Made by a program: the position numbers and the translations under genes. A stretch of 64,000 nucleotides of DNA. It comes from a virus. The notes below the pieces were generated by a model. That model was not told where the DNA came from, made no database searches, and saw only the letters and a list, made by a program, of their open reading frames with translations. Positions within the stretch are counted from its first letter, which is position 1, and every line of letters starts with the position of its first letter. The DNA lies in the IMG/VR virus record IMGVR_UViG_3300048029_000212, positions 1-64,000 of that record. One strand, given 5' to 3'. Shown here piece by piece: positions 56,487-59,695 of the stretch.

Positions 56487-58160
56487 TTATTTGCGTGTTC
56501 CTACGTATGGATCTTGAGGATCTGTCGTAGATATGTTTCCGGTCACGATGGATGCCCCGCCACCACCGCCGTTAGAAACATTGTTTAATGTGCTGTTGTC
56601 GATAGCTACAACAGGAGGCGTATTTTTCATCTCGTTACTTTCTTTTACTAAAGAAGACACGTTACTAGAAGATGTCGGTGTAGACTGTCGTGATGATTCA
56701 CTTACCGATAAGACAGAATCTATTTTACTGAACGTATCATTAGGTATGTTTTTTAAGCCCGGTTTAAATGTTAATTCTTTCCCCTTTGGAGTATTCGCCT
56801 TTCCACCTTCATACATTGCATCGAACATCGGAAGTGTTAACGCCATCAATTCTCCAAGTTCACTTAATTCTTTTTTAGACCGACTGAAGTTAAGGCTTGT
56901 GTCCGAAAGATTTGATAAAGCCATCGTCATTTTTGCAACTGCATTTGCGGCTGGGTCAAACTTTTCTAGTTTAGAAAGGTCAACTTGTTCAAGTTGCTTA
57001 AGACCTTCGCTAACTCTTTCATAAACGGTTGAAGTGTCTCCGGTCAAAAAACTTGCAAAACCATCAATTAAATTACCAACCCCATCAATTGCTTTTGCTC
57101 CTGTTAACATAGCAATGCCGGTTGCAACTATAGCAGCCACCGGAGCAAACCCAAGAAGTTTTGTATAGTCTGGTTTTGTCAGTCCCGTTAAACCCTCGCC
57201 CAAGTTAATCATCATATTTCGTATGTTGGAACCGTCAACGTTCATCCAGTCCATTGCTTTGTCGCCAACAGCAAGACCACCGAAGAATCCACCAATACCC
57301 AGTCCAATTGCAGTCATGCCGACTGCAGCATATCCTAACCCCTTTATTCCACCTTTAAATTGTGCAAATATACCAGCTCCGGTTAAAAGCGCAGCCAGAC
57401 CTACTAGTTGACCACCACTGAATGCACTCAAACCCTCGGAGAGGTTGATCATCATTGATTTGAGTTTAGAACCATCAACATTCATCCAAGACATTGCTTT
57501 GTCGCCAACAGCGAGAGCTCCGAAAAATCCGGCTAGTCCAAGACCAAGCGCGGCCATACCGCCGCCTGCTCTAAAGGATGACCCTGCACCGAACAGAGCT
57601 CCTAATGCACCAGAACCTGCAATAAGACCCCCAAGTATAAGTAACCCGTCCTTTGGCGCCTCTGAGAATGCTTCACTCAAAGTGATTATTTGTTTTTTAA
57701 GAGATTGTCCATCTATTTTTAAGTAATTTCCTGCAGCATCTGCCAAAGCAATCCCTGAAAAGAATGCACCCAGTCCAATACCTAGTCCCGCAAGAGCGGC
57801 ACCAGCGCCTAGGCCTTTAGCCATAAAACCCAGACCGCCCGCTAATGCATTTGAGAACACGCCTTGTTTTTTTCCGGATCCTTTTGTATCTTTATCTTTG
57901 GTGTTGGCCGAAATTTCCATTAGAGTGTCCAGCATTTTTTTATCAAATGCTTTCTTTTCACTCTTTTCTTCGGACAAATCTCCGGGCTCGGGCGTGATGT
58001 TCCTTATTTTTTCAGCAGTGTCCATCAACTCCAGTCTGTATTGTTTCAGACTAGGTGTTTCGTGAACTACCGCCCTGATGTAGTCATATACATCATTGTG
58101 AGAATCCCTTTGATCTTTATTTAATTCTTTTAATTGTTCTGATAGATCAGCTAAAGACAT
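56487..58160 (-). CDS. Tail tape measure protein
   Basis: A 557-residue protein with a charged N-terminal region, then a long Gly/Ala-rich hydrophobic middle built from three imperfect repeats of about 72 residues, each containing a GDKAMxWMNVDGSxL signature, then a polar C-terminus. Long size, hydrophobic repeats and position after the gp26-type gene fit the tail length-determining protein (T4 gp29 role). The ATG directly follows the stop of the frameshift extension of gp26. Confidence 0.7.
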   Translation of the reverse strand: MSLADLSEQLKELNKDQRDSHNDVYDYIRAVVHETPSLKQYRLELMDTAEKIRNITPEPGDLSEEKSEKKAFDKKMLDTLMEISANTKDKDTKGSGKKQGVFSNALAGGLGFMAKGLGAGAALAGLGIGLGAFFSGIALADAAGNYLKIDGQSLKKQIITLSEAFSEAPKDGLLILGGLIAGSGALGALFGAGSSFRAGGGMAALGLGLAGFFGALAVGDKAMSWMNVDGSKLKSMMINLSEGLSAFSGGQLVGLAALLTGAGIFAQFKGGIKGLGYAAVGMTAIGLGIGGFFGGLAVGDKAMDWMNVDGSNIRNMMINLGEGLTGLTKPDYTKLLGFAPVAAIVATGIAMLTGAKAIDGVGNLIDGFASFLTGDTSTVYERVSEGLKQLEQVDLSKLEKFDPAANAVAKMTMALSNLSDTSLNFSRSKKELSELGELMALTLPMFDAMYEGGKANTPKGKELTFKPGLKNIPNDTFSKIDSVLSVSESSRQSTPTSSSNVSSLVKESNEMKNTPPVVAIDNSTLNNVSNGGGGGASIVTGNISTTDPQDPYVGTRK

Positions 58161-58346
58161 TTATAAACCTTTCCGTTTTGCCCTCTCATTTTTTTCTTTT
58201 ACATCATCCACTAACAGTGTTAAGTAGATTTCTCTCTCCCAAGGAATCATATGTTCAACGTCGTCCAATGAGTAATTGAAATTGTTCATTAGTTGGAAGT
58301 TGACTTGATAATAGTTTGTCAACGTTTCATGGGAGAGGTTTACTAA
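58161..58346 (-). CDS. Second reading frame reached by -1 frameshift from gp26
   Basis: A 61-codon open frame (from TTA at 58346 to TAA at 58161) that continues in frame -1 exactly from the slippery TTTTTTT just before the gp26 stop. It has LTNYYQVNFQLMNNF and DVEHMIPWEREIYLTLL. It has one internal ATG but no ribosome site before it. Best read as the C-terminal part of a fused gp26 product of about 298 residues. Confidence 0.6.
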   Translation of the reverse strand, partial: LVNLSHETLTNYYQVNFQLMNNFNYSLDDVEHMIPWEREIYLTLLVDDVKEKNERAKRKGL

Positions 58347-59056
58347 AAAAAATCGTCGAGTCCTCTTAATATGTGATCGTTTTCAGTTCCACATGAGTGA
58401 CACTTAAACTCTATGTTTTTTGTGAGACTGGGTATGTTGTTGGCGAAGTCAGAAATCTTTTCAAATTGACTTGATGTCATAGACTCTAAAAAAGACATTA
58501 TATCTTCATTTGTTTCGTCTTTAACAGAAATATTTTCTTCTTCGGTCATAATGGAGTCCATACAAGTAATGATTAGTTGCATGAGAGCTTCGGTTACCGT
58601 AGAACTTTCAGATAAGTTTTCATTTAAGAGAAACTCATCATACGTTGGATATTTCATTTTGACAGACACATCATCGGTAATAGGTATGATAGTGCCGGAC
58701 TTTTCACTTCCGGTTGTGACTTCTATATCGTCTAATGATATAGAAATCTCATTTTCTTCGTTACACTCGCTACAAGAAACGTTTATTTTAGATGTTTCTC
58801 CCACCGACTTAGAACGAATTTTTGTGAACATATAGTCAACATCAAATGTTGTTAGTCCATGATCTAATTTTTCTTCAACACAAGACTCAATAGTGCGAAT
58901 TATCGATCTAACGATGTCTCTGCGGTTTTGAGATTCAAGTGCAATCAATAAAGATTTTTGCTCTTTAACTAGAAATGGTCTGTATGTGACACTTTGTTTG
59001 CTAGATGGAACTGTCATCCCATACGACGGCGACGAGTTAAGTTTTGGTAATGCCAT
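58343..59056 (-). CDS. 26: Baseplate hub/tail assembly protein gp26-like
   Basis: A 237-residue protein in the T4 gp26 family: KQSVTYRPFLVKEQKSLL near the start, paired cysteines in VSCSECNEE and FKCHSCGTE that could form a zinc site, and a ESMTSSQFEKISDF segment. It lies between a tail-tube protein and the tape measure, the position of tail assembly chaperones in other tailed phages. The last codons GAT TTT TTT TAG hold a slippery heptamer. Confidence 0.82.
   Translation of the reverse strand: MALPKLNSSPSYGMTVPSSKQSVTYRPFLVKEQKSLLIALESQNRRDIVRSIIRTIESCVEEKLDHGLTTFDVDYMFTKIRSKSVGETSKINVSCSECNEENEISISLDDIEVTTGSEKSGTIIPITDDVSVKMKYPTYDEFLLNENLSESSTVTEALMQLIITCMDSIMTEEENISVKDETNEDIMSFLESMTSSQFEKISDFANNIPSLTKNIEFKCHSCGTENDHILRGLDDFF
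58346..58352 (-). promoter_or_regulatory. Probable -1 ribosomal frameshift site
   Basis: T TTT TTT in the gp26 frame, directly before TAG. A -1 slip reads TTA and opens 61 further codons. Confidence 0.6.
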
Positions 59057-59071
59057 GATATATCCTATAAT

Positions 59072-59695
59072 TTAAATTAAACCACCAAGATTGAGCCCTA
59101 TGCTTGGACTCAACCCATCCTTTTCGTTCTTTATAACTTCCCAATCAGTGTAGGAAAACTGTACAGAAAATTCAACAATTTGATCCTGATCACTATTCAA
59201 CTGAATAGAACTCATTGACGTTGGAAATGCGTTTATCAGTTTTACACTGTATATAGATTTTCCCAAAACATCTAGATTAAAATCTAATGGTCCTAAATCA
59301 AAACCAAATCTGGCGATAGGTTTTTTTAGTTGACGTATAAAAATATCTCTTGAATAATTGTCTCTGTATCCAACATGTAAATGGTCGTCTTTTTTTACGA
59401 TTATTTCAGACTTCCATTTATCAAAATACTTCTTGGGAGCATAGTCATTCGTAACATAAAATGTCATAGACACATCCTCTGTTGAGAATCCATTAGCAAC
59501 TTTTTCTTGGACCATTGCGATGGGTCTGTCAAGAGTAAGTATCTGTCTTCCCGGCAAAGACACTTCTTTACAGAGAACATTCATTGTACGACTATCTACT
59601 CCGCCCATTGATGGAAGATTAACCAGAAACTGGTTGTTCATAGCCAGACCACCTTTGGAGATCAGTTTACTTTTTAATTCTTCTATGCCTGCCAT
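59072..59695 (-). CDS. Tail-tube-fold protein (gp54/gp19 type)
   Basis: A 207-residue protein. MNNQFLVNLPSMGG, CKEVSLPGRQILTLDRPI and VSMTFYVTNDYAPKKYFDKW are landmarks of the T4 tail tube fold. With gp48 close by, this is probably the tube initiator gp54, though gp19 has the same fold and a separate gp19 is outside the window. Confidence 0.78.
   Translation of the reverse strand: MAGIEELKSKLISKGGLAMNNQFLVNLPSMGGVDSRTMNVLCKEVSLPGRQILTLDRPIAMVQEKVANGFSTEDVSMTFYVTNDYAPKKYFDKWKSEIIVKKDDHLHVGYRDNYSRDIFIRQLKKPIARFGFDLGPLDFNLDVLGKSIYSVKLINAFPTSMSSIQLNSDQDQIVEFSVQFSYTDWEVIKNEKDGLSPSIGLNLGGLI

Follow-up and report, generated by a model that had tools for sequence, protein, structure and literature searches.

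A single gp26-like gene very probably gives rise to two forms of one tail assembly chaperone by programmed -1 ribosomal frameshifting in the T4-related marine phage from which the window (the whole stretch of 64,000 nucleotides that was analysed, positions 1 to 64,000 of IMG/VR record IMGVR_UViG_3300048029_000212) was taken. A conserved slip site at the end of the gene, an extension in the -1 frame, an SD-like element upstream of the site, a covarying stem downstream of it and homology to T4 gp51 are all found in the sequences compared. A frameshift at this place had been proposed in a preliminary description of the locus and is strongly supported by the conservation of the arrangement, by the many relatives whose extension lacks a start and by the conserved signals on either side of the site.

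Gene order and the slip site

All features of the locus are on the minus strand. The gp26-like ORF (59056..58343, 237 aa) terminates GAC GAT TTT TTT TAG, with the stop at 58343..58345 and a run of eight T at the end of the frame. When the sequence was read with a -1 slip on the heptamer T TTT TTT (58346..58352) the addition of 61 codons, as first described, was confirmed, giving an extension of 61 aa and a stop (58161..58346) with the product LVNLSHETLTNYYQVNFQLMNNFNYSLDDVEHMIPWEREIYLTLLVDDVKEKNERAKRKGL. The last base of its TAA is 58161 and the next ATG starts at 58160, so that the extension ends directly before the presumed tape measure gene (56487..58160), also in agreement with that description. 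The genes follow each other as tail tube (gp19-like, 59072..59695; phrog_45, 2.3e-35), gp26, extension and presumed tape measure, as had been stated, the last being assigned by position and size only (557 aa as compared to 590 aa in T4 gp29); a DNA end protector (phrog_429) precedes the tail tube. This 557-aa protein gave no Pfam or PHROG profile match, and an identification with T4 gp29 by sequence was set aside as the match was weak and of low complexity only. The two joined frames are thus placed between tail tube and tape measure, as in the frameshifted chaperone genes, with the tape measure assigned in this way.

Profile searches placed gp26 in PF12322 (6.8e-59, 199.6 bits against a curated cut-off of 24.5) and in phrog_150 (9.4e-59), and it is the single PF12322 gene above the cut-off in the whole genome; it would represent the short chaperone form (TAC-N, the lambda G counterpart). 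Two matches were obtained with the extension, one to phrog_634, "baseplate hub assembly catalyst" (3.5e-22), the other to the C-terminal end of phrog_150 (1.4e-8). The second match suggests that some members of the gp26 family are fused to the extension in frame; the extension would be the counterpart of lambda T and of the C-terminal domain of T4 gp51.

The preliminary description had proposed to examine whether the heptamer and the extension frame are kept in related phages. Among viral contigs and annotated phage records 334 loci holding both gp26 and the extension were counted, and an extra query from BUCT-ZZ01 added only three viral loci. The extension is in the -1 frame in all 334, and in 333 of them the last codons of gp26 contain, precisely in frame, either T TTT TTT or T TTT TTC, so that the two frames would be joined at a conserved slip site close to the gp26 stop. 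The sole locus without the heptamer (L302, 1414-1510) lacks the end of gp26, either through a real deletion or through an assembly fault. The slip site was found in Kyanoviridae, Pelagibacter phage Mosig, Aeromonas phage phiAS5, Vibrio phages XZ1 and D485, Menderavirus (Mendera), Agrobacterium phage Atu_ph04, Sinorhizobium phage phiM12 and Acinetobacter phage SH-Ab 15599. By codon usage, the probability that all 109 non-redundant loci would have a T-ending codon followed by TTT as first Phe codon is ~10^-33, a figure that ignores shared ancestry.

Elements flanking the slip site

Two groups of loci were distinguished by the residues following the slip, type I (.LSH, 154 unique loci), which is the clade of the window, and type II (.MAH, 62 loci), consisting of P-SSM2-type cyanophages. 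In both, the heptamer is preceded by an SD-like stretch, its 3' end 8-10 nt away, whose pairing with the anti-SD is stronger than that of synonymous recodings, with -6.11 against -4.80 kcal/mol under the synonymous-codon null in type I and -8.68 against -5.55 kcal/mol in type II. The element is weak in the window genome (AGAGGA, 58361..58366, 3' end 8 nt before the heptamer), where it is a probable upstream stimulator. Both this element and the downstream stem had been missed in the preliminary description.

The type I stem is formed by YCTYTCYCA, 7 nt after the heptamer, and TGGGARAGR in the codons of a PWERE motif, enclosing a loop of ~88 nt. In the window the 5' arm CCTCTCCCA (58330..58338) begins 7 nt past the heptamer and the 3' arm TGGGAGAGA (58233..58241) consists of the codons TGG GAG AGA; when CTCTCCCA is paired with TGGGAGAG eight of the nine pairs form, the outermost being C.A. 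In 73 non-redundant loci the mean pairing is 8.63 of 9 as compared to 6.35 under the synonymous-codon null (sd of the mean 0.13), all nine pairs are formed in 47 loci where 2 were expected, and 95.9% of the cells of the nine-pair stem are paired. The codon choice within the arms is skewed in the same loci, the Leu codon being CTC in 55/73 (6% usage elsewhere) and the Arg codon AGG in 45/73 (10% usage elsewhere).

The two variable pairs, which alternate between C-G and U-A, correlate best with their exact partners among 56 codons (r 0.85 and 0.75). On a tree built from gp26 alone they showed 8 and 6 same-branch double changes (expected 0.57 and 0.52), 14 in total, and the other codon positions tested 0 to 4 against ~1 expected. 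All compensatory changes are at third codon positions and are synonymous. RNAalifold returned this stem and no other as consensus, and sliding or shuffling the arms sharply weakened the signal. Folding of single sequences discriminates poorly, with the stem in 62/73 natural sequences and in 47-56/73 with swapped 3' arms. A coupling to GC content was rejected as source of the covariation, the variable pairs changing independently and in opposite directions (CT/GA in 14 loci, TC/AG in 18) and the unpaired codons not following them. Each stem has one position at which U.G pairs prevail when it is read as mRNA, which disfavours a structure on the antisense strand.

The outermost type I pair (window positions 58338 and 58233; A2 columns 15 and 120) departs from C-G/U-A only as C.A, in 9/73 loci, and never as U.G; the reverse would be expected of an mRNA helix, and this is at odds with the mRNA-strand reading.

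The long-range stem is absent from the type II cyanophages. These have a local hairpin of 10-11 bp, 5-6 nt past the heptamer (AGUAUGGCUCA...UGAGUCAUACU), with 9.30 of 10 pairs formed against 5.51 under the null and covariation at one pair, where U-A, A-U and G-C are exchanged. One locus (L327, 1495-1617) combines a cyanophage-type extension with the long-range stem (CCCTCTCCC with GGGAGAGGG) in place of the local hairpin, which suggests that one architecture was exchanged for the other. When the region after the site was folded and compared to synonymous recodings, a stronger structure was found in C48C1, S-PM2, Mosig, XZ1, D485 and BUCT-ZZ01 (z -2.8 to -7.1) and a weaker one in SH-Ab 15599, phiM12 and phiAS5 (z about -1.5 to -2.3), and in DSL-LC03 the same comparison revealed no structure after the slip site.

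Stimulatory structures of bacterial -1 sites begin 4-10 nt after the motif and are 17-140 nt long (PMC4066793), and the spacing of 5-7 nt found here therefore fits the published rules. The three parts of a bacterial -1 signal, an SD-like element 6-17 nt upstream, a heptamer and a structure 4-10 nt downstream, are all present. A real frameshift combined with some other function of the covarying stem, for instance in mRNA stability or as a restraint on translation of the extension, is improbable, though this is the alternative that survives best; the long type I loop would be unusual for a stimulator and speaks for it, but the spacing lies within the window known for stimulators (PMC4066793) and unrelated structures hold the same place in other lineages, which ties their role to the slip site.

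Translation of the extension and its relation to T4 gp51

If the extension were not reached by frameshifting it could be a separate small gene, "gp51", with a start of its own used by termination-reinitiation or internal initiation, and it is given as a separate gene in most cyanophage annotations; the records of P-SSM2, S-PM2, C48C1, Mosig and phiM12 have it in this form. The annotated starts vary between phages and exclude conserved residues. For most type I relatives an own start was rejected, ATG, GTG and TTG being absent from the first 12 extension codons in 94 of the 154 unique loci, and the third-position variability of the -1 frame begins directly after the slip, ahead of any start codon. 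An in-frame ATG shortly past the gp26 stop does exist in all 62 type II loci, but the nearest in-frame AUG is buried in the 5' arm of the hairpin (L163, 2992-3036, and the 61 other type II loci), so that initiation there is unlikely, and the SD-like element is ~23 nt from the ATG, too far for initiation and well placed for frameshifting. The small "gp51" gene annotated in P-SSM2-type cyanophages is therefore, judging from its sequence context, probably not translated on its own. Taken with the heptamer kept in 333/334 loci, and with the in-frame fusion of the same domain to a gp26-like domain in T4 and in Campylobacter phage CP220, this leaves little likelihood to a separately started gene.

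Five records (L161, L162, L163, L166 and L172) list the extension as a protein of its own, a "baseplate hub assembly catalyst", with a length of 34-57 aa and a start that differs among them; T4 gp51, by contrast, has 249 aa and carries a gp26-like domain ahead of the extension.

A relative with a separately started extension had been named beforehand as an observation that would speak against frameshifting, and one such relative was found. In Vibrio phage D494 (L177, 3640-3900) there is one PF12322 gene, T TTT TTY is absent and the ATG of the extension overlaps the gp26 stop (TAATG), which favours the separate gene in that phage; D494 is a distant exception outside the clade of the window. A switch from frameshifting to reinitiation in D494 is possible, as is the use of its T TTC tetramer.

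Transcriptional slippage in place of ribosomal frameshifting is disfavoured by the slip sites. The eight consecutive T in the window would allow the frame to be changed in the transcript, but in about half of the loci the site is T TTT TTC with only six T in the run. A run of six T is too short for efficient slippage of RNA polymerase. Neither the SD-like element nor the downstream stem would have a role in such a process, which is very unlikely to be the source of the -1 frame. A sequencing error or a decayed single gene, suggested by the homopolymer at the junction and, as regards its length, already raised as an objection in the preliminary description, has a negligible probability, as the same heptamer in 333/334 loci and an extension that is always in -1, in an arrangement shared by 334 loci and many isolate genomes, exclude both error and chance.

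To address the relation to T4, pairwise comparisons were made, in which residues 16-247 of T4 gp51, almost the full protein, aligned to the predicted fusion with 22% identity (E-value 4e-10) and T4 gp26 to gp51 with 3e-6, the latter two being paralogues. The T4 gp51 architecture, a gp26-like and a PWERE-type C-terminal domain in one polypeptide, is found only for the predicted fusion, the extension by itself lacking the gp26-like first domain. T4, Klebsiella phage KP1, Aeromonas phage 31.2 and Campylobacter phage CP220 each have two PF12322 genes, and the extension is joined in frame to one of the two. Of the phages with the slip site, those tested (phiAS5, phiM12, SH-Ab 15599 and the window genome) have a single PF12322 gene that exceeds the cut-off; the heptamer is absent from the gp26 ends of T4 and KP1.

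In CP220 (L175, 2328-3062) the second PF12322 gene is located ~9 kb away from the in-frame fusion of gp26-like domain and extension. This two-gene state lies outside Tevenvirinae and perhaps represents an independent duplication.

An AF2 model of gp26 (pLDDT 88) was used for structural comparison, and its residues 1-85 matched the HK97 tail assembly chaperone 2OB9 with Z 7.4 and rmsd 3.0 over 82 residues, ranked second among 998 chains; a Z under 8 can reflect a common arrangement, and the Foldseek E for the match was 1.1. A sequence search of the PDB revealed no relative of gp26. The predicted fold is thus suggestive of a link to the HK97 chaperone, short of proof. In T4, gp26 and gp51 are both counted among the hub assembly chaperones, and the particle does not contain gp51 although this protein is required (PMC3004832), which fits the chaperone reading. 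The suggestion made from the locus, that gp26 corresponds in T4-type phages to the frameshifted chaperone pair, is in this way supported by the T4 gp51 paralogue with its in-frame extension and by the HK97 fold likeness.

Proposed mechanism and known systems

Slippage, its rate, its stimulation by the stem and the chaperone role are what we infer from these sequences. Most ribosomes would stop at the TAG and yield gp26 alone; on a minority both tRNAs would re-pair on T TTT TTT and translation would continue in the -1 frame, yielding gp26 with the 61-residue domain, a long form that would be the equivalent of T4 gp51 and of gpGT in lambda. If lambda is taken as a guide, gp26 would coat the tape measure, and subunits of the tail tube or hub would be brought in by the extension. 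The SD-like element 8-10 nt upstream and the 9-bp stem 7 nt downstream with its ~88-nt loop most likely raise and set the slip rate, because of the selection at silent sites and their placement as in known -1 stimulators, and the stem would probably tune the ratio of short to long form. It seems likely that the frameshift of T4-type phages depends on a dedicated three-part signal whose downstream structure has been rebuilt between lineages, and that T4 substituted a gene duplication for it, with two genes in place of RNA setting the ratio.

A review from 2016 described the G-T frameshift as conserved in long-tailed phages "except T4" and stimulators as seemingly absent in certain tailed-phage frameshifts (PMC5009743). 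Papers citing Vladimirov, Gautam and Davidson 2022 (Virology 566:9-15) credit that study with identifying the chaperone genes of T4-like phages, some having a short gene and a separate fused gene, and with T-rich (poly-T) slip sequences in TAC-N genes of these phages (PMC10885494, PMC12846349). The frameshift idea for this family is hence not new and its principle is published; the identification of gp26 as a chaperone counterpart, although supported here, was likewise already in print for T4-like phages, which the preliminary description did not know.

Among the papers searched (the full text of the 2022 study lying outside their scope) none was seen to describe the SD-like element or the covarying structures of the single lineages, and in Rfam no family matches the region. 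What appears to be new is thus the three-part signal of SD-like element, heptamer and stem 5-7 nt downstream, with a putative stimulatory function. T4-type phages would no longer stand apart from the other tailed phages, in which this frameshift is very widely conserved, and the "gp51" that many cyanophage genomes list as a separate gene of ~57 aa is probably no more than the last part of the fusion protein. The phages form a natural series for the control of chaperone ratio, in which the slip site is followed by a long-range stem, is followed by a hairpin, or is replaced by two separate genes.

The present system shares the T4-type chaperones with short and long form with the gp26/gp51 of T4-like phages treated by Vladimirov et al. 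2022, a study whose title stresses a mechanism other than frameshifting, with separate short and long genes. In the chaperone frameshift of Vandenendeviridae/Andersonviridae (phage Adele) a conserved -1 frame upstream of the tape measure and a T-rich slip sequence are likewise found; the available part of that paper gives the motif as GTTTTT and does not mention RNA structure (PMC12846349). With lambda G/GT the locus has in common the position between tail tube and tape measure, a -1 slip shortly before the first frame ends and a short and a long product, a comparison made on gene arrangement. Compared to those tailed-phage frameshifts that seem to have no stimulators (PMC5009743), both an SD-like element and a stem are conserved here. 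The -1 signals of E. coli dnaX and the IS3 family are similar in having an SD-like element and/or a downstream structure at comparable spacing around a heptamer, and differ from the present one, in which the heptamer is T TTT TTY and the type I stem is long-range with its 3' arm in the PWERE codons.
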